Virus record (IMG/VR): IMGVR_UViG_3300044922_000479
Location: 1 to 61,782 of that record
Length of the DNA: 61,782 bases
Source: a virus
Direction: 5' to 3' (one strand)
A program made the translations under genes and the position numbers. Positions within the stretch are counted from its first letter, which is position 1; the number at the start of each line of letters is the position of its first letter. The notes under the pieces are model-generated. The model ran no database searches. It had not been told where the DNA came from and worked only from the letters and a program-made list of their open reading frames with translations. Shown here in pieces: positions 3,135 through 28,754 of this stretch.

Positions 3135-3174
3135 TCCGTGATATAATTCAAGCACTGGACCAGCCGGTCCAGTG
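3119..3174 (+). promoter_or_regulatory. Promoter with 5'-terminal 9-bp hairpin
   Basis: TGTCAC (3119-3124), a 17-nt spacer, then TATAAT (3142-3147) with an upstream TGA forming an extended -10. CACTGGACC (3153-3161) and GGTCCAGTG (3166-3174) form a perfect 9-bp stem with an AGCC loop, starting where transcription is expected to begin. The leader AGAAAGAAGAG and ATG at 3199 follow. Confidence 0.72.
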
Positions 3175-3198
3175 AAACCTTAAGAAAGAAGAGAGATC

Positions 3199-3516
3199 AT
3201 GAAATCAGTAAAGACAATCGTAATCGACAATAATCGTTTTGCATTACCTGACGGAATGTCAGCCAAAGACATTCAGTCACTGGCCGGATTCCTCTGCTCA
3301 CTGACAACCTTGGGCACTGAATACAATTACGACGCAAGCGAATACGTTTACTATGACAATGGCGGTGTAAGCATTCGGGTCAGTGAGTGCGAAGTACTGG
3401 CCAAGGCCGAGGCCCGTGATCTGGGTGACCAGAGTCGCGAACGCTATCAGGCCAGACGCGACGCAGAAGAAAGAGCAAAGGCCGGTGACCTAGTCGGCCT
3501 ACACGTGAACCAGTAA
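3199..3516 (+). CDS. Small protein of unknown function
   Basis: A 105-aa protein with no recognised family. The N-terminus is a predicted alpha/beta region; the C-terminal third is rich in Arg, Glu and Ala (about residues 70-97) and probably forms a long helix. It has its own promoter, hairpin and leader. It is the last gene before the palindrome cluster and the terminator at 3565. Confidence 0.7.
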   Translation: MKSVKTIVIDNNRFALPDGMSAKDIQSLAGFLCSLTTLGTEYNYDASEYVYYDNGGVSIRVSECEVLAKAEARDLGDQSRERYQARRDAEERAKAGDLVGLHVNQ

Positions 3517-3523
3517 GCGCTGG

Positions 3524-3551
3524 TCTAGGTTGTATGTACATACAACCTAGA
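3524..3551. repeat. 28-nt perfect palindrome
   Basis: The sequence reads the same on both strands over 28 bases, centred on TGT|ACA. Its right arm, TACAACCTAGA, also occurs just before the 2643 gene (2616-2626). There is no T tract, so it is not a simple terminator. It could be a cruciform, a protein-binding dyad or a strong RNA hairpin. Confidence 0.85.
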
Positions 3552-3564
3552 AATCACAAACCCG

Positions 3565-3591
3565 AAGGCAGCCGAAGTGGCTGCCTTTTTT
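3565..3591 (+). terminator. Intrinsic terminator of the early region
   Basis: AAGGCAGCC and GGCTGCCTT form a perfect 9-bp stem with a GAAGT loop, followed directly by a T run. This is a textbook rho-independent terminator ending the early transcripts ahead of the late genes. Confidence 0.9.
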
Positions 3592-3598
3592 ATTGGCC

Positions 3599-3646
3599 GA
3601 TACTCTACCCTACAGGGTAGAGTATCACAGGGCCCATGGGCCCTGT
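3599..3646. repeat. Two adjoining inverted repeats
   Basis: Bases 3599-3626 form a 13-bp stem with only 2 nt between the arms. Bases 3627-3646 are a 20-nt perfect palindrome centred on CCATGG. They abut each other without a gap. No T tract follows either, which argues against simple terminators. Confidence 0.85.
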
Positions 3647-3711
3647 AGCCTTACCATACTATCCTTACGCGCGCCTTACGCTTCTCTCTTTTCTTTTATT
3701 TCTTCCCTCAT

Positions 3712-3740
3712 GGTGGTGGCGGGGGTGGGTGGGCCCGCTG
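3712..3740 (+). repeat. 29-bp G-rich direct repeat, copy 2
   Basis: Identical to 1971-1999. It is again preceded by a pyrimidine-rich tract and a GGCCCATGG-type palindrome, so the larger element is duplicated, though with divergent sequence between the conserved parts. Confidence 0.85.
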
Positions 3741-3883
3741 TTACCTCTTGTCTGCGTATAGGGATGACTTTAGTTAGAGGGGGAGGGCCATAAACAGCCC
3801 GTCAAGCGCAGCCGAAACCTTCGCCCTGTTTCTGCCAAATTTCAAAGCTTTTTAAACTTGGCCTCCCCAAAAGACCCCCCTTG

Positions 3884-3912
3884 TTGTTTTAAATGCAATC
3901 AGGGGTTATATT
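3884..3912 (+). promoter_or_regulatory. Candidate late promoter for terL
   Basis: TTGTTT (3884-3889), a 17-nt spacer, then TATATT (3907-3912), 25 nt before the terL start. It is a moderate match to the sigma-70 consensus. Confidence 0.4.
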
Positions 3913-3936
3913 TATGCAAATTTCAAAACGTGGCCC

Positions 3937-5406
3937 ATGATCCCTACAAAACCAGACGATGTCCAAGAAGAACAGCTACGCCTAGAGCTACGCTTAAAAC
4001 TCTTAGAGGCACAGGAGCGTGCAACCACTGACTTCCTGTCTTTCTGCCAGTACGTCTGGCCCGAGATGCTTGTCGGGGAGCACCACAAACGAATCGCCAA
4101 AGCCCTTGACCGTGTCATTTCTGGCGAGTGCAAACGCCTGATGATCGCGATGCCTCCCCGTCATGGTAAGTCCCAGCTTGGGAGTTATCTGTTTCCAGCA
4201 TATCTGATGGGCCGCAACCCTGACACCAAACTCATTGTCGGCTCCCACACCGCGGAGCTTGCTCAACGCTTCGGTAGGATGATCCGTAACCTTGTCGATG
4301 ACGAGAAGTACAAAGAGTTGTTTCCAAAAATGGCCCTGTCCGTGGACAGTAAAGCGGCGGGAAGATGGAACACGGCCCAAGGCGGTGAAGCGTTCTTCAT
4401 TGGTAAGGGCGGTGCGATGACGGGCCGTGGTGGTAATGTTGTCGTGCTGGATGATATTTTGGACGAGCAGGATGCTGTGTCTGAAACTGCGATGGAGAAC
4501 ACGTGGGAGTGGTACACGTCCGGTCCTCGCCAGCGTCTGCAGCCGGGCGGCGCGATCATCGTAATTAATACGCGTTGGAAGACAGACGATCTGTCTGGCC
4601 GCTTGCTCAAGCAGCAAGGCTATTTAAAGTCTGACCAGTGGGAGGTCTTGGAGTTTCCTGCTATTCTGCCGTCCGGTAAACCTTTGTGGCCTGATTATTG
4701 GAGCCTTGATGAGTTAGAAAAGGTGAAGGTTTCCATTGGCCTGAAGAAATGGAACGCCCAGTGGCAGCAGCAGCCAACGAATGATGAGGGTGCGATTCTG
4801 AAGCGTAACTGGTGGCGCAAGTGGAAATACGATGATCCACCAGAGTGTGAGTATCTGATTCAGGTGTACGATACGGCGTACTCAAAAAAAGAGACTGCTG
4901 ACTTTTCTGTCATCTCAACGTGGGGCGTGTTCTATCCTGATGCGGACTCGGGTGCGAATCTGATGCTCTTGAACGTGCGCAAAGGCCGGTGGGACTTTCC
5001 TGAACTCAAACGGATGGCCAAAGATGAATACATGTATTGGCAGCCTGATAATGTTTTGATTGAAGCCAAGGCTACCGGCACACCGCTGCAGCAGGAACTA
5101 CGGAAGATGGGCATTCCTGTCACAATGTTCTCGCCCGGTGGTCGTAAGTCAGGACAAGATAAGGTCAGCCGCGCCAATGCTGTTGCTCCGCTCTTAGAGT
5201 CCGGCATGATCTGGTACCCTGAAGGTAAGGAGTGGGCCGAGGACCTTGTAGAGGAATGCGCGGCTTTTCCTAATGGGAACAATGACGACCAAGTGGATAC
5301 CGCGGTGATGGCTTGGACGAGATTTAGGGCGGGCAACTTTATTGCGTTGGAGTCTGACGATAACGAAGAGACAGAGCCCGACACAAGCCCTGTTGAGTAT
5401 TATTGA
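3937..5406 (+). CDS. terL: Terminase large subunit
   Basis: This 489-aa protein is the ATPase-nuclease motor that packages DNA into the prohead. The ATPase half shows a Walker-A-like PPRHGKS (73-79), a Walker B VVVLDDILDE (D172-D173) and the NTRW coupling motif (~211). The RNase-H-fold nuclease half shows YDTAYS (D312), LIEAKATG (E376) and NDDQVD (around 450-454) for metal binding. It matches TIGR01630-type phage terminases in length and order. The ribosome-binding site is weak; the next upstream ATG (3914) runs into a stop, which fixes this start. It is the first late gene. Confidence 0.96.
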   Translation: MIPTKPDDVQEEQLRLELRLKLLEAQERATTDFLSFCQYVWPEMLVGEHHKRIAKALDRVISGECKRLMIAMPPRHGKSQLGSYLFPAYLMGRNPDTKLIVGSHTAELAQRFGRMIRNLVDDEKYKELFPKMALSVDSKAAGRWNTAQGGEAFFIGKGGAMTGRGGNVVVLDDILDEQDAVSETAMENTWEWYTSGPRQRLQPGGAIIVINTRWKTDDLSGRLLKQQGYLKSDQWEVLEFPAILPSGKPLWPDYWSLDELEKVKVSIGLKKWNAQWQQQPTNDEGAILKRNWWRKWKYDDPPECEYLIQVYDTAYSKKETADFSVISTWGVFYPDADSGANLMLLNVRKGRWDFPELKRMAKDEYMYWQPDNVLIEAKATGTPLQQELRKMGIPVTMFSPGGRKSGQDKVSRANAVAPLLESGMIWYPEGKEWAEDLVEECAAFPNGNNDDQVDTAVMAWTRFRAGNFIALESDDNEETEPDTSPVEYY

Positions 5407-20174: not shown

Positions 20175-21011
20175 ATGGCGTTAGCTTGGGGTGACGGCGC
20201 ATGGGGTGATAACGCATGGGGCGGGGGGGAGACTTTTCCTGTCAGCGTTACTGAAACTACCGCATTAGCCGAATCCCAAGCTGCTGGGTTATTGATTGAT
20301 GTAAGTATTACCGAGTCGTTGACTGGTGGTACGTCTTGGGGTCAAGACGCTTGGGGTTCTGGTTCTTGGAGTGGCACATCAGGCATTCAGGATGTTCAGA
20401 CTGTAGCTTTGACAATGAATGTGGCAGTAGATGAGTCTGCTGCTATTGCTGAAGCCCAGTCTGCTACTGCGGTGTTTGCGGGGGCTGTAACGGAAACTGC
20501 TGCTATTGCTGAGGTAAATGAAGCAATAACCAGCTACAACGTCAGTGTGGCGGATAGCCAGACCATTACGGATGAGGAGGCAGCGCAGACAAGTTACAAC
20601 GAAAGCGTGTCGGAGTCAATGAGTATTGCGGATGTAGAGACAGCGGTTGCTACATTCTTGGGTGATATATCGGAGTCGATTGCAATAGCAGAAGCACAGG
20701 TGGCTGTGCTGATTATGACCATCAATGAGTCGATGGGTATTGCAGAAGGAACGACTGTAGGAACGTATTACCAAGAGTTTTTGACTGAGTCTGCGGCAAT
20801 TACGGATACAAATACGGGTGGTGCAAACTACCGAGTAAGCCAGACGGAAACGATGGCTATAACGGAAACAAATGGTGGACGCTTTTTGTGGGAAATTATT
20901 GATGACACACAGGGCGTTACATGGCAAAATATCAGCAATCCACAAACACCGGGCTGGTCGGATGTTGATACAACTGAATCGCCCGGTTGGACACAAATTT
21001 CTACACAGTAG
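20175..21011 (+). CDS. Repeat-built structural protein
   Basis: A 278-aa acidic protein. It opens with Trp/Gly repeats (GDGAWGDNAWGGG; repeated as GQDAWGSGSWSG). It then has about eight imperfect ~22-residue units of the form 'VSxTExxAIAExxxAxxxY' (about residues 25-235), and ends with Trp-rich pieces (VTWQNISNPQTPGWSD, SPGWTQIS). It starts 1 nt after the previous stop. The regular repeats suggest an elongated fibre or an appendage shaft. I recognise no enzymatic domain. Confidence 0.68.
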   Translation: MALAWGDGAWGDNAWGGGETFPVSVTETTALAESQAAGLLIDVSITESLTGGTSWGQDAWGSGSWSGTSGIQDVQTVALTMNVAVDESAAIAEAQSATAVFAGAVTETAAIAEVNEAITSYNVSVADSQTITDEEAAQTSYNESVSESMSIADVETAVATFLGDISESIAIAEAQVAVLIMTINESMGIAEGTTVGTYYQEFLTESAAITDTNTGGANYRVSQTETMAITETNGGRFLWEIIDDTQGVTWQNISNPQTPGWSDVDTTESPGWTQISTQ

Positions 21012-22255: not shown

Positions 22256-24337
22256 ATGCCAATGCGTCCTCCTGCTGGGTTTATCTCAGCCTTTTATGAT
22301 CCGCTGAACAATCCTAATGCGCCAACCATTGGGACGGCGTCACCTGACGATCAATCTGCATCTGTTGCATTTACTGCGCCAACTAATGTGGGTGGTTCGG
22401 CTATTACATCGTACACAGCCATCTCAACGCCGGGTTCTTTTATTGGCACAGCCGCATCGTCTCCTGTTACGGTGTCTGGGCTGACTAATGGTTCATCGTA
22501 CACATTTGCTGTATGGGCAACAAATACTTATGGGCCAAGCGCATTTAGCGCGTCAAGCGGCAGTGTAATCCCCGCTATACAGCCTTATGGTTTGTTTGTG
22601 GGTAGCGATGGTGGTTCAAATGTTGTAAACAGAATCAACATATCTACAACTGGAAATGCTACGGATTTTGGGGATAGTTTGATTGGTAGGGATGGCCCCG
22701 GTGCTTGTTCCTCTAGCACTCGCGGTCTTGTGGCTGGTGGTTACAACTACCCATCAGGAAACCAAAATTCTATTGAGTACTACACATTTTCGTCACCCGG
22801 CAATGCCACGGATTTTGGCGATTTAACTACTGGCAAAAACGGATTAGCTGGATGCTCAAATGCGGTGCGCGGAATGTTTGGTGGCGGTACTATTGACAGA
22901 AATGCAATTGAGTATGTAACTATTCAGTCTTTAGGGAATGCCATAGATTTTGGTGATTTAACTCGTGGCGCATATTATATTTCGGCGCTATCTTCATCTA
23001 CCCGAGGTGTTTGGGGTGGGGGTAATGGCCCTTTAACTAACATTATTGATTATGTAACCATAGCTTCTACTGGGAATGCCTCAGATTTTGGTGATCTGTT
23101 ATTGGAAACTACTACTTTGGCAGGGTGCGCTTCTGCTACTAGAGGTTTATTTGGCGGTGGCAGTTCTAACTCTGTGGTTTATAACATCATCCAATATATT
23201 ACGATTGCGTCGACAGGCAACGCCATAGACTTTGGTGATCTTTCAAGCACAATCAATGGCCTTGCGGCTTGTGCATCTGATACTAGAGGTATTTTTGCTG
23301 GCGGTTTTGACCACATAGCTGGCGATAGAACCAACGTTATCCAGTACGTCACAATTGCTTCTACAGGGAACACGGCAGATTTTGGCGATCTTACGAATGC
23401 ACCAAACAACTTTGCAGGCTGCTCATCAGGAGCCGCCGCTGTCCAACCAACACCAACAAGTTCTGCTATGGCAGTATTTTTAGGTGGTGACACAAGCGCA
23501 TCCCAACAGTCCATGCAGTATATAAATATTGCTTCTACTGGAAATGCGTATATGTGGGGGCAGTTATCTAATACACAGACTAATTGGGCTGGATGTGGCT
23601 CTAGCACTACAGGTGTTGCTGGTGGTGGAACCATTAGTGGAACAAGAACAAACGTCATTCAATACTTTACTTACGCCACCCAAAGTGGGACTGCTACATT
23701 TGGAAACTTGTCGCAGTCTCGTACTAATTTGGCGGCGTTATCAAATGACACTCGCGGTGTTTTTGCGGGAGGTGATATTCCGGGAAATGTTTCTGCTGTA
23801 ATGGATTATGTAACTATTGCATCCACTGGAAATGCAACTTCGTTTGGTAACTTACTTAGTGTTGTTTTTAGAGAGGCTGGCTGTGCATCATCCACTAGAG
23901 GAATATTTAGTGGGGGCAACAATAATAGTACCACCATCAACGTAATTCAATACATTACCATTGCAACAACTGGCAACGCAACCGACTTTGGCGACTTAAC
24001 TGTGGCTCGTCAATATCTAGCCGCTTGCTCGTCTTCTACCAGAGCTTTATTTGCGGGTGGCGAAAGCGCCGTTACCAATGTAATTGACTACGTTACTATT
24101 GCCTCCACTGGTAATGCAACTGACTTTGGTGATTTAACGGTTGCACGAGTTCAATTGTCTGGCGCTTCTTCATCCACAAGAGGTGTATTTGCTGGCGGCG
24201 CTGACTCATCTGGCCCAAATACCAATATTTTGGATTACGTTACGATTGCCTCCGCAGGAAATGCTACCGATTTTGGTGATCTGTCTGGCGCTTATGTAAA
24301 TATGGCGGCTTGTTCTAACGCCCACGGAGGTATCTAA
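22256..24337 (+). CDS. Fibre-like protein A: FN3 plus 6+6 propeller-type repeats
   Basis: A 693-aa protein. Residues ~15-110 form a fibronectin type III domain (SPDDQSASVAFTAPTNVGGSAIT..GLTNGSSYTFAVWATN). Then come twelve ~45-50-residue units of the form 'RGxFxGG...NVIxYVTIASTGNATDFGDLT..R..LAGCSSS'. They split into six and six by a linker, AVQPTPTS, near residue 405. Each half begins with the GG strand and ends in a CSN..HGG-type cap, as expected if terminal strands close a beta-propeller. These proteins are probable receptor-binding fibres. Confidence 0.78.
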   Translation: MPMRPPAGFISAFYDPLNNPNAPTIGTASPDDQSASVAFTAPTNVGGSAITSYTAISTPGSFIGTAASSPVTVSGLTNGSSYTFAVWATNTYGPSAFSASSGSVIPAIQPYGLFVGSDGGSNVVNRINISTTGNATDFGDSLIGRDGPGACSSSTRGLVAGGYNYPSGNQNSIEYYTFSSPGNATDFGDLTTGKNGLAGCSNAVRGMFGGGTIDRNAIEYVTIQSLGNAIDFGDLTRGAYYISALSSSTRGVWGGGNGPLTNIIDYVTIASTGNASDFGDLLLETTTLAGCASATRGLFGGGSSNSVVYNIIQYITIASTGNAIDFGDLSSTINGLAACASDTRGIFAGGFDHIAGDRTNVIQYVTIASTGNTADFGDLTNAPNNFAGCSSGAAAVQPTPTSSAMAVFLGGDTSASQQSMQYINIASTGNAYMWGQLSNTQTNWAGCGSSTTGVAGGGTISGTRTNVIQYFTYATQSGTATFGNLSQSRTNLAALSNDTRGVFAGGDIPGNVSAVMDYVTIASTGNATSFGNLLSVVFREAGCASSTRGIFSGGNNNSTTINVIQYITIATTGNATDFGDLTVARQYLAACSSSTRALFAGGESAVTNVIDYVTIASTGNATDFGDLTVARVQLSGASSSTRGVFAGGADSSGPNTNILDYVTIASAGNATDFGDLSGAYVNMAACSNAHGGI

Positions 24338-25270
24338 ATGCCAAGCTATTCAGGGGTATGGACACTCACTGCTCAGTACCAAGCCAAGGGTGCGGGGAAT
24401 TGGCCTTTGCCGCCTTTGACGGGGGACATTGGTCTAATTGCTGGTGGAAACCAAAACGCAATTAACTACATCACGATAACTGCAACGGGTAACTCTACAG
24501 ATTTTGGCGATCTACTTGCGTCCACTAGCGTTTTAGCGGCTTGCTCCTCTTCTACAAGGGGTGTGTTTGGTGGTGGTGAAACTGGATCAAGAACAAACGT
24601 TATTCAATATGTCACCATTGCTAGTGTTGGTAACGCTACGGATTTTGGAGACTTAACCGCTGCTAAAGGGTATCTTGCTGGGTGTTCAAATAGTACGCGA
24701 GGTTTATTTGGGGGCGGTGATGCTACCACTAATATTATTTCTTACATTACTATCGCCACTACTGGTAATGCAACATCATTTGGTGATTTGACACTTGCAA
24801 GATATTCTGTTGGTGGCCTTGCCTCAAGTACACGCGGCGTGTTTTTTGGTGGGGACAACACTGGCGAACGTAATATTATTGATTATGTGACTATTGCTTC
24901 AACTGGAAACGCTACCGATTTTGGCGACCTACTAACACCTGAAGAACGAGTTCAGGGTTGTGCAAGTTCAACCAGAGGAGTAATGGCTGGCGGTCAATCA
25001 CCAACGTCAAACGTTATTCAATACATCACAATTGCTTCCACAGGAAATGCAACGGATTTTGGTGATTTAACTGTGGCAAGAAACTACACGCCGGGGGCTT
25101 CAAATTCAACACGTGGAGTTTTTTGCGGTGGTAATGATGGCGGCAGTGGGTTAAATGTTATGGACTACATTACTATTGATTCAACTGGTAATGCCACTGA
25201 TTTTGGTGATTTACCCAATACAGATTTTGCCCAACCAGCCGCCTGCTCTAACTCTCACGGGGGTCTATAA
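24338..25270 (+). CDS. Fibre-like protein B: single set of six repeats
   Basis: A 310-aa protein starting immediately after protein A. A short N-terminal segment with SGVWTLTAQYQAKG (~5-18) precedes six repeats of the same family as in proteins A and C (GNSTDFGDL, GNATDFGDL, GNATSFGDL and so on), ending CSNSHGGL. It is a single-module paralogue. One set of six is consistent with one six-bladed propeller. Probably a virion surface protein for host recognition. Confidence 0.77.
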   Translation: MPSYSGVWTLTAQYQAKGAGNWPLPPLTGDIGLIAGGNQNAINYITITATGNSTDFGDLLASTSVLAACSSSTRGVFGGGETGSRTNVIQYVTIASVGNATDFGDLTAAKGYLAGCSNSTRGLFGGGDATTNIISYITIATTGNATSFGDLTLARYSVGGLASSTRGVFFGGDNTGERNIIDYVTIASTGNATDFGDLLTPEERVQGCASSTRGVMAGGQSPTSNVIQYITIASTGNATDFGDLTVARNYTPGASNSTRGVFCGGNDGGSGLNVMDYITIDSTGNATDFGDLPNTDFAQPAACSNSHGGL

Positions 25271-25272
25271 AA

Positions 25273-27198
25273 ATGGCAATCTCTTCATGGAACGCGGGCA
25301 TCATCAGACCCGTACCCGTAGCTCCTGCTGGGCCGTATCAAGACGGAGCGGCTCCCGGTGTGTGGACGCTGGCTCAAGTAGCCTTTTGGAATCAACAAGG
25401 GTTGTGGCCCACGGCTGGTAATCTTGCGCCTATTGGTTTGTTTGGTGGTGGAACACCAGATTCGTCAGCGGTATACAACACAATTGATAGGGTCGTAATA
25501 TCTTCTGCGGGTAACGCTACTGACTTTGGTGACCTTACGGTTGCAAGATTTGGCACTGGGTCTTGTTCGTCAAATACGCGAGGGCTTTGGGGTGGCGGCA
25601 CAAATTCTGTTGGTTCGGCAGTTAACGTAATTGATTACGTTACTATTTCCACGGCTGGTAATGCTACGGATTTTGGCGATTTAACAGTAGCTCGTGGATA
25701 TCAACTTGGTGGTTTTTCAAATTACGTTCGCGGGTGTTTTGCAGGCGGTAGTGGGCCTTCTAACGTAATTGATTACGTAACAATTGCTTCTGCTGGAAAC
25801 GCTACGGATTTTGGTGATTTAACATTTGCGGCTCAAGGCGCGGCGGCTTGTGCCTCGACAACTCGTGGTGTTATTGGCGGTGGCTATGACTCTGCACAGC
25901 GAAACGTAATTCAGTACATCACTATTGCTTCAACGGGTAATGCCACAGATTTTGGCGATTTAATACAAGTTAATTATTACTTAGCTGGATGCGCTTCGGA
26001 AACTCGTGGAGTGTTTAGTGGCGGTCAAACAACGTCAGGCGTTGTTATAAATGTAATCCAATATATCACTATTGCCACTACTGGCAATGCAACAGACTTT
26101 GGTGATTTATTAGGTACAAACTCCGTATTGGGCGCTTGCGCTTCTTCTACTAGAGGGGTTATGGGTGGCGGTTATTATAATGCCACAACCTCAAACGTCG
26201 TAGAGTACATCACCATTGCGTCTACCGGCAATGCAACTGATTTTGGTGATCTAACTCAGGCTAGGTATTTTGTGTCAGGGCTTTCTTCTGCCGCCGAAGC
26301 TGTCCAGCCCACACCAACAAGTGCGGCTATAGCTATTTTTGCTGGTGGTTACAACTCGGCAAGCGAGTACGTCAGCTTAATTGACTACGTCAATATTGCC
26401 ACCACAGGTAACGCATATATGTTTGGCGACTTGATTGCGCCAATGGGATTTTTAAATAGAAGCGGATGTGCTAGTAGCACTCGCGGCATCATTGCTGGCG
26501 GTTTTAATTCAGTTACCACTAACAATGTAATACAGTACATTACATTTGCATCTTTTGGCAACGCATTAGATTTTGGTGACTTGACTGGCAATAATTATAT
26601 AACTGCGGGGTGTAACTCAAGCACCAGAGGATTGTTTGGTGGTGGCTCTAGTGGGCCAACAAATGTTATTCAATACGTCACCATTGCTTCTGTTGGCAAC
26701 GCTACAGATTTTGGCGATCTTACTCTTGCACGAGGGGGGCTTGGTGGTTGTTCATCTTCCACCAGAGGTGTGTTTGGCGCGGGCTATGATGGAGCAGGTG
26801 TAAACGTAATTGATTACGTCACTATCGCAACCACTGGCAACGCTACTGACTTTGGTGACACGGTTATTGCAGGCTATAACATAACAGCGTTTTCAAATTC
26901 AACTAGAGGAATTTGGGCGGGTGGGACTGACAGCGGTGGAACCGCCGTTAATATTATCCAATACGTCACTATCGCTACAACAGGAAACACTACTGATTTT
27001 GGTGACTTAATTACAGATGCATCAATTTTGGCTTCTGGAAGTTCTGCTACAACAGGGGTTATTGGTGGTGGTAGTGGCACAATTAACGTCATCCAATATG
27101 TCACCATTGCTTCAACAGGCAACTCAATAGATTTTGGCGATCTTACTCAAGGACGAGCAAGTCTTGCTGGTTGTTCTAACTCCAATGGTGGTTTATAG
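25273..27198 (+). CDS. Fibre-like protein C: 6+6 propeller-type repeats
   Basis: A 641-aa protein with an N-terminal segment, GVWTLAQVAFWNQQGLWP (~30-48), resembling that of protein B. Twelve repeats follow, divided six and six by AVQPTPTS near residue 345, as in protein A, with the first post-linker repeat degenerate (GNAYMFGDL). It ends CSNSNGGL. Unlike protein A it lacks the FN3 domain. Three adjacent paralogues point to duplication followed by divergence of receptor-binding modules. Confidence 0.77.
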   Translation: MAISSWNAGIIRPVPVAPAGPYQDGAAPGVWTLAQVAFWNQQGLWPTAGNLAPIGLFGGGTPDSSAVYNTIDRVVISSAGNATDFGDLTVARFGTGSCSSNTRGLWGGGTNSVGSAVNVIDYVTISTAGNATDFGDLTVARGYQLGGFSNYVRGCFAGGSGPSNVIDYVTIASAGNATDFGDLTFAAQGAAACASTTRGVIGGGYDSAQRNVIQYITIASTGNATDFGDLIQVNYYLAGCASETRGVFSGGQTTSGVVINVIQYITIATTGNATDFGDLLGTNSVLGACASSTRGVMGGGYYNATTSNVVEYITIASTGNATDFGDLTQARYFVSGLSSAAEAVQPTPTSAAIAIFAGGYNSASEYVSLIDYVNIATTGNAYMFGDLIAPMGFLNRSGCASSTRGIIAGGFNSVTTNNVIQYITFASFGNALDFGDLTGNNYITAGCNSSTRGLFGGGSSGPTNVIQYVTIASVGNATDFGDLTLARGGLGGCSSSTRGVFGAGYDGAGVNVIDYVTIATTGNATDFGDTVIAGYNITAFSNSTRGIWAGGTDSGGTAVNIIQYVTIATTGNTTDFGDLITDASILASGSSATTGVIGGGSGTINVIQYVTIASTGNSIDFGDLTQGRASLAGCSNSNGGL

Positions 27199-27225: not shown

Positions 27226-28044
27226 TTGAACGACCTAATCATCAGCAACATCAACACGGCTTTAACCACTGTAAAGCCTGAGTACAACGTCATGTTGAGC
27301 AACATTGACGCTAAGATGCCAGCGGTGGTGCGTGACACCAGCAACTTCCACAAGAGCCATTCGCAGTTCATGCAGGTGACCTTGGACGTTACTGCCATCA
27401 CCCCAATCCGTAGCATAAAACATACACTTGCTGAAATTGATCGTACACGCGCCGCTTTGCAAGAAGCCTACATCAACATGCGTAAAAAGCAGGTTGAGAT
27501 GAAGAAGAAACAGGCCCAACTAGAAGCCTGCACTGACGCACTTGACCGTGAGTTGTTTGAGATTGAGATTCTTGAACTAGGCTCACACCTTGACGGCACA
27601 CAGAACGCAGTCAATGGCGCTATCCGCAAGATGAACTTCATGGTCAACCAACACGCCCAGTTGCTGGAAGCTGTTGGCAAGAACGAGATCACCGAAGAAG
27701 ACTACGAGAAGGAAGAGTCCCGCTATCACATCATGACCTGTATGAAGCAGGCTTTAAACGCGGCACGTTCACGCAGTGGCATGATTGACGAAGGCAACCT
27801 AATCTATTTGTTTGACTTGGGTATTAACGCCGCTCAAGCGCAGGCCGAGGTGTTTGCCTACCTGAACATGGAGAACCAGCTTATTTCCAACGGCAACGCA
27901 CCGACGCACGAGATGACCATGCGCTGGTTAGAAGCTTGTGCTGACAAGTGGGAGAAAGACCCTGAGACATTTGCCGCCCGCCGTGGCTTCTCTGTCTTTG
28001 ATCCTACGTCTTTGACCAACACACCGCAGTTGGAAAACAAATAA
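27226..28044 (+). CDS. Coiled-coil phage protein of unknown function (TTG start)
   Basis: A 272-aa protein. The TTG at 27226 is the chosen start because AGGAGA lies 5 nt before it; the first in-frame ATG is 66 nt further on without a good ribosome-binding site. The middle is a strong coiled coil (about 75-125: INMRKKQVEMKKKQAQLEACTDAL). It overlaps the glycosyltransferase gene by 1 nt (TAATG), implying coupling. The protein lies between fibres and the glycosyltransferase. I do not recognise a family with known function. Confidence 0.75.
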   Translation: MNDLIISNINTALTTVKPEYNVMLSNIDAKMPAVVRDTSNFHKSHSQFMQVTLDVTAITPIRSIKHTLAEIDRTRAALQEAYINMRKKQVEMKKKQAQLEACTDALDRELFEIEILELGSHLDGTQNAVNGAIRKMNFMVNQHAQLLEAVGKNEITEEDYEKEESRYHIMTCMKQALNAARSRSGMIDEGNLIYLFDLGINAAQAQAEVFAYLNMENQLISNGNAPTHEMTMRWLEACADKWEKDPETFAARRGFSVFDPTSLTNTPQLENK

Positions 28045-28754
28045 TGCACCTAGTCGTCGGCACACCGTGTTTCGGGGGGATGATGTGTACTGAGTACACA
28101 GAGTCCCTGCTGGCGCTCAAGGAGGCCTGCTTGGTTAACAACATCAAGCTAACGTGCATATTCCTTGGGAACGAAAGCTTAGTGCAACGTGGCAGAAACA
28201 CCATCGCGCACCACTTCATGCAGATGCAGGATGCAACCCACCTAATCTTTATTGACGCTGACCAGAAGTTCGTGGCAAACGACATTGCCCGAATGATTAA
28301 GGCTGATAAAGGTATTGTGGGTGGGCCAGTCCCTATGAAGGGAATTAACTGGGATAGGGTTCGTCAGGGCGCTGTTTTGAACCATCCTGCCCTGCACAAG
28401 CTGACTGGCATTTTTAATTTAAACAAGCTGGACGGTCACGAGATGATTAGCTCAGACTTGCCGTTTCAGGTAAAGCATATTGGCACAGGATTTATGTTGA
28501 TCCGCCGGGATGTTTTTGAGAAACTACAGCCTCATGTGGGCTGGTATGACAACGGGGGTGTAACCATCCCCAAAGGCGAGAAGGTGTACGACTACTTCAA
28601 GGTACAGAACTACGACCACGAGCTTCTGTCTGAGGACTACAACTTCTGCCACCTGTACCGTGAGCATGGTGGAACCGTCTGGGCCGCACCTTGGTGCGAA
28701 CTCGGGCATTTTGGCGCATATTTATTTAGCGGGCAGTACGCCCAAGGAGCATGA
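28044..28754 (+). CDS. GT-A-type glycosyltransferase, copy 1
   Basis: A 236-aa protein with a Rossmann-like GT-A fold: MHLVVGTPCFGG at the N-terminus, QRGRNTIAHHF, then FIDADQKF (a DXD-type motif binding metal and nucleotide sugar), GGPVPMKG, IGTGFMLIRRDVF and SEDYNFCHLYREHGG. A paralogue is encoded at 56156-56893 with the same blocks in the same order. It may modify phage DNA, virion proteins or host surface sugars. Position next to fibre and lysis genes does not decide between them. Confidence 0.82.
   Translation: MHLVVGTPCFGGMMCTEYTESLLALKEACLVNNIKLTCIFLGNESLVQRGRNTIAHHFMQMQDATHLIFIDADQKFVANDIARMIKADKGIVGGPVPMKGINWDRVRQGAVLNHPALHKLTGIFNLNKLDGHEMISSDLPFQVKHIGTGFMLIRRDVFEKLQPHVGWYDNGGVTIPKGEKVYDYFKVQNYDHELLSEDYNFCHLYREHGGTVWAAPWCELGHFGAYLFSGQYAQGA

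Follow-up and report, generated by a model that had tools for sequence, protein, structure and literature searches.

Three adjoining genes (A, B, and C) of an uncultured aquatic phage (IMG/VR record IMGVR_UViG_3300044922_000479) likely encode host-adhesion fibres or fibre tips, in which slot-specific anchors carry closed six-bladed Kelch-like beta-propellers that are exchanged as whole units. The slot-specific N-terminal anchor would attach each protein to the virion, and would bear a single closed six-bladed Kelch-like propeller in B and two of them in A and C, with each set running from strand b of blade 1 to the strand a that completes this same blade. Variable d-a and b-c loops on the ligand-binding face would contact the receptor, and heads would diversify mainly through the exchange of complete propellers, both between genomes and among the three slots, the breaks falling where anchor meets head and at the linker joining two propellers. 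We infer the virion location and host-receptor binding of A, B, and C from gene context and comparison of related loci, referred to below by L numbers.

Repeat architecture and genome context

Genes A, B, and C adjoin end to end in the ORF list of the window, i.e., the whole stretch of 61,782 nucleotides that was analysed (Table 1). When units were delimited by splitting each protein at the [FW]G[DNQ][LTS] core, exactly 12, 6, and 12 units of ~47 residues were obtained, as the initial annotation had claimed. The first core of A reads GNATDFGDS, and unit spacing in the three proteins is 45–50 aa, except across the linker (58/60 aa). This linker, described beforehand as an AVQPTPTS stretch dividing the 12-unit proteins six and six, indeed lies exactly after unit 6 in both A and C. 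Two other elements of that description had to be amended. The CSN..GG cap proposed to end each block is found at the C-terminal sets only, whereas in A and C the first set terminates ahead of PTPTS with CSSGAAAV and LSSAAEAV, respectively. Similarly, the unit that follows the linker, supposedly "degenerate", is really a shared conserved variant (GNAYMWGQL in A, GNAYMFGDL in C), for which 31 twelve-unit proteins yield the consensus QYVNIATTGNAYxFGDL. On these sequence grounds, the post-linker GNAY-type variant is a marker of the lineage of second sets, not of decay. The fn3 match in the stalk of A has an E-value of 3e-4, below the Pfam cutoff.

Table 1 Features of the three genes (window coordinates) and split propellers in related loci (coordinates within each locus).
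Feature	Position	Strand	Description
Gene A (slot 1)	22256-24337	+	693 aa; anchor/stalk with fn3-like domain, then 12 units as two six-repeat sets
A N-terminal anchor/stalk	22256-22585	+	MPMRPPAGFISA..., fn3-like; conserved, whereas head varies
A first six-repeat set	22586-23431	+	Predicted propeller 1; fold predicted from homology to the B and C models
A inter-set linker	23432-23470	+	AAAVQPTPTSSAM; kept in relatives
A second six-repeat set	23471-24334	+	Predicted propeller 2; first unit carries GNAYMWGQL signature
Predicted ribosome-binding site of B	24326-24340	+	Within coding sequence of A; Gly-Gly codons GGAGGT, stop, abutting ATG
Gene B (slot 2)	24338-25270	+	310 aa; short anchor, then one predicted six-bladed propeller
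B anchor	24338-24427	+	MPSYSGVWTL..NWP
B predicted six-bladed propeller	24428-25267	+	AlphaFold2 and Foldseek
Gene C (slot 3)	25273-27198	+	641 aa; anchor, then two predicted six-repeat propellers
C N-terminal anchor	25273-25431	+	..AGIIRP..GVWTL..GLWP; same anchor type bears other heads in relatives
C first six-repeat set	25432-26292	+	Predicted propeller 1; unit count and AlphaFold2 model
C linker	26293-26331	+	AEAVQPTPTSAAI; unit count and AlphaFold2 model
C second six-repeat set	26332-27195	+	Predicted propeller 2; unit count and AlphaFold2 model
Split propeller, L082	3799-4778
Split propeller, L109	4846-6062
Split propeller, L213	5778-7009
Split propeller, L237	3729-4811
Split propeller, L239	4522-5564
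Split propeller, L288	3703-4790

The three genes are located in a virion structural region, flanked by matches to terminase, portal, capsid, and virion proteins, and are syntenic with a fibre-like region of DSL-LC04, the named phage whose terminase is closest (62.7%). In DSL-LC04, the gene found after a small MANPNI.. ORF carries two Gly_rich_2 stretches on an anchor resembling that of slot 3. Since the propeller repeat was absent from the searched stretches of the named phages with the closest terminases (DSL-LC04, HTVC027P, and 023Pt_psg01), these phages inform synteny, not function. Profile matches to portal and ejection proteins, along with the terminase relatives, indicate that the phage is probably short-tailed. 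An ORF upstream of gene A (20175-21011) contains repeated ES..IAE.. units, to which the N-terminal repeats of the L071 propeller gene (3571-5049) look similar, and an ORF just downstream of gene C (28044-28754) matches phrog_1574 (unknown function, E 2e-37).

Predicted fold

An AlphaFold2 run on B with 48 relatives yielded a model with a mean pLDDT of 92.9, a pTM of 0.89, and 24 strands (6 x 4), which open with strand b of blade 1 (31-36) and close with strand a (300-304). When compared to the PDB with Foldseek, this model matched the closed six-bladed Kelch domains of KLHL12, Keap1, and the designed SAKe6 (E down to 3e-18), with TM-scores of ~0.75–0.79 by query and up to 0.88 by target, at an identity of ~14%. 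The model of C includes 24 strands, a low-confidence linker (342-350), and then another 24 strands, so that C is predicted, judging from strand counts, to form two propellers; its best Foldseek matches span one Kelch domain (TM ~0.9 by target), and the relative placement and orientation of its two heads are not fixed by the model because of a pTM of 0.53. Both proteins were thus modelled with four antiparallel strands per blade in a closed ring, and matched full-length to closed Kelch domains. The models agree with the earlier suggestion that the termini close a six-bladed propeller, as the B set is predicted to start with strand b and end with strand a, as in Kelch domains, and the strand counts correspond neither to seven blades nor to a solenoid. 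A seven-bladed or open-solenoid reading was ruled out from these models together with the unit counts. In KLHL20, blade I is formed by the C-terminal strand A and the N-terminal strands B–D (PMC6720452). Here, units would come in sixes because the C-terminal strand a closes blade 1 of a six-blade set.

At the sequence level, Pfam Kelch repeat profiles had no match in A, B, or C, nor in any of 48 homologues, and a sequence search against solved PDB chains returned no significant match. Membership of the Pfam Kelch sequence family was rejected for lack of such a match, and the propeller heads are instead predicted to fold like Kelch domains while standing outside Kelch sequence families.

Interchangeable heads on conserved anchors

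Among relatives, the three anchor types also bear Gly_rich_2 (PF21722), Lcl_C (PF07603), DUF7483 (PF24299), and ConA/LamG (PF13385) domains, as well as two further repeat heads (KYTY and AYPWS types) with mostly 6 and mostly 7 units, respectively. For instance, slots 1, 2, and 3 carry propeller, Gly-rich, and LamG heads in L214, and 12-unit, Gly-rich, and 12-unit heads in L069. Unannotated AYPWS-type or KYTY-type heads are found on these anchor types in L215, L222, L207, and L204–L206. The proteins combine a conserved N-terminal anchor with a variable, exchangeable distal domain, the arrangement by which phage receptor-binding proteins are recognized. That the anchors accept interchangeable heads is the strongest argument for considering these heads as adhesins rather than fixed parts, and receptor-binding heads that can be exchanged are the best interpretation of the propellers. 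Alternatively, the propellers could represent fixed tail or nozzle parts, or decoration proteins without a role in host recognition: propellers can occur in phage nozzles and other tail parts, and A, B, and C do lie in the structural region. Structural parts are conserved, however, yet here heads diverge or give way to unrelated adhesin-like domains, and the copy number per slot (6 or 12) differs among relatives, which makes this alternative unlikely.

The comparison of related loci places recombination breakpoints at two sites, the junction of anchor and head and the linker between propellers. Slot-1 anchors of relatives show ~80–86% nucleotide identity up to ~nt 300–320, where the set begins. 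Among 12-unit proteins, 14 mosaic pairs associate a closely shared part with a divergent one, although these pairs share loci and thus represent fewer than 14 independent events. The best changepoint was found after unit 6 in 10 pairs and after unit 7 in the other 4, and since the unit-7 segment (71–80% identity in these four pairs) includes the conserved linker, all 14/14 can be read as switching at the linker. Meanwhile, five complete six-unit sets were highly identical across slots (L045/L033, L113/L012, L203/L103, L214/L078, and L276/L064), while their anchors were just 13–46% identical. Together, these linker switches and complete sets common to different genes uphold the initial proposal of an evolution by whole-set exchange. 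Some exchanges look partial, with L084 g1 and L034 g2 having four of six units in common. In a tree of single sets, slots 1–3 are intermixed, making slot a poor guide to head ancestry. The PTPTS-type second sets fall almost entirely (31/32) within one clade of 37 that spans slots 1–3, and linker types other than PTPTS occur in relatives, which is consistent with more than one origin of the doubling.

Loop variability and probable receptor binding

An entropy profile over 1788 internal units displayed peaks at profile positions 3–6 (d-a loop) and 21–27 (b-c loop), with lower values elsewhere. In Kelch complexes, BC loops frame the ligand pocket and DA loops form its floor (PMC7333892, PMC6720452), and the variable d-a and b-c loops are likely receptor contacts in the phage proteins as well. 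A receptor-binding role appears well supported by context, i.e., by swappable heads on conserved stalks and loop-confined variability, and head swapping most likely changes what the phage adheres to. The propellers might otherwise be enzymes acting on the host surface, such as glycan-degrading or galactose-oxidase-like Kelch enzymes, as sialidases or oxidases are known among phage and bacterial propellers (PMC4901313) and weak Foldseek matches to viral proteins annotated as galactose oxidase were obtained. This seems improbable, however: the best fold matches are Kelch domains that serve interaction and not catalysis, conservation is highest at motifs present throughout the repeats (G39, F44, G45) rather than at a single-blade site, and Gly-rich and lectin-like domains can take the place of these heads.

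Copy number among relatives

The repeat profile was run on ORFs of fetched related loci, and unique complete ORFs were tallied. Exactly 6, 12, or 18 units were counted in 310/329 of these ORFs (247, 62, and 1, respectively), although loci were picked as best matches and some are from the same contig or near-identical, so that these counts describe the family and not independent samples. Splitting, fragmentation, or a weak or masked unit within a 12 or a 6 accounts for the 19 remaining ORFs. They include the paired halves of six genes divided as 2+4 or 3+3, two fragments of an interrupted L023 gene that match stretches of one intact L024 gene (100% identity), short or truncated ORFs in L028, L078, and L160, an L230 ORF with 11 counted units taken as 12 with one weak unit, and an L233 ORF containing N bases for which 5 units were counted. 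Apparent 7s were rejected as six units followed by a C-terminal cap matching the first 14–17 repeat-profile positions (strand a), and apparent 11s and 5s turned out to be 12s or 6s in which a single unit is weak. The cap fits unit-profile positions 1 to 14–17 in eight single-set proteins. With 6 or 12 units found again in hundreds of homologues, this count is far from chance. Near-identical tandem repeats are susceptible to both slippage and assembly collapse, and truncated ORFs were seen (L078, L160), but it is highly improbable that the sixes reflect either process rather than a structural rule given the tally above and an internal control: in simple-pattern counts, each of the alternative repeat heads carried by these anchor types has a characteristic number, mostly 6 units in KYTY heads and mostly 7 in AYPWS heads.

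Larger arrangements were also observed. A single 933-aa ORF in L286 (4731-7532) encodes 18 units, arranged as three complete sets that each possess a cap and a leader. On a Porticoccaceae MAG contig (L233, 782-7786), six tandem propeller genes differ in their N-termini; five have six units, and the sixth (3144-4307) includes masked bases and scores five units.

Putative embedded translation signals and split propellers

Within the codon-usage set of 297 genes, the terminal Gly-Gly was encoded as GGAGGN in 71% of the 221 genes with an ATG overlapping or abutting the stop, a positional test that includes some chance ATGs. The corresponding frequency was 12% for the 76 genes without such an ATG, and 16% for internal Gly-Gly pairs. 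In the window, A ends with GGAGGTATCTAA followed by ATG, and B ends with GGGGGTCTATAA followed by AAATG, while C, the last gene, uses GGTGGT, with a separate AGGAG preceding the next start. Judging from this codon usage, a ribosome-binding site for the next gene appears to be embedded in the terminal Gly-Gly codons.

In six loci (Table 1), the propeller is encoded by two coupled ORFs, the division falling in the b-c loop directly after the Gly-Gly strand. The stop and start of the two ORFs overlap by one base or abut, and the halves total six units (2+4 or 3+3). L082 and L109 have the second half in common (63% identity), and their anchors differ. We tentatively propose, as a possibility somewhat short of likely, a three-slot docking system with standard anchors, different closed adhesin heads, propellers passing from slot to slot as sealed units, Gly-Gly codons serving as ribosome-binding sites, and fusion or splitting in multiples of six. 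If true, 6+6 and 6+6+6 proteins would be fusions, and 2+4 or 3+3 chains would reassemble one propeller from two coupled genes.

Relation to known systems and significance

The predicted heads resemble the Kelch propellers of Keap1, KLHL12, KLHL20, and the designed SAKe6 in their six blades of four strands, in the Gly-Gly ending strand b, in the C-terminal strand a in blade 1, and in their variable b-c and d-a loops. They differ from these in showing no family sequence match, with ~14% identity, and in belonging to a phage protein on a stalk-like anchor in which propellers are doubled or tripled per chain. Among phage receptor-binding proteins, propellers are described for Gp45 of the S. aureus phage phi11, PRD1 P2, and PhiKZ gp131C in the excerpt of PMC4901313, where, as here, a beta-propeller is the presumed receptor-binding domain. 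Blade number differs, with five blades in phi11 and seven in PhiKZ gp131C versus six here, and tandem duplication of a whole propeller, present in our data set, was not found for the phi11, PRD1, and PhiKZ proteins within that excerpt. The same fold is predicted for Kelch-motif phage proteins in BFVD, from Burkholderia phage BcepSaruman (only 20% identity), Synechococcus phage S-SKS1, and an uncultured Caudovirales (A0A6J7WZC1, 38% identical over the alignment). These are uncharacterised, and neither the six-set rule nor slot exchange was found described for them.

Tail fibres and tailspikes similarly combine a conserved N-terminus with a shuffled receptor-binding C-terminus (PMC10684548), i.e., a conserved anchor and a recombining head. 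Unlike in these modular proteins, the unit exchanged here would be one closed propeller, and exchange occurs among three neighbouring genes as well as between the first and second propeller positions in proteins with two heads. A non-exhaustive search of the open-access literature (titles and abstracts) on six-bladed propeller receptor-binding proteins of phages returned no description of this cassette.

Taken together, this indicates that, in natural phage populations, selection and recombination act on the complete propeller and not on single blades. The related loci make up a large natural collection of aquatic-phage proteins whose fixed anchors bear exchangeable heads, with which it becomes testable which loops set receptor choice, whether the two heads of a fibre may recognize different receptors, and whether split propellers would reassemble.
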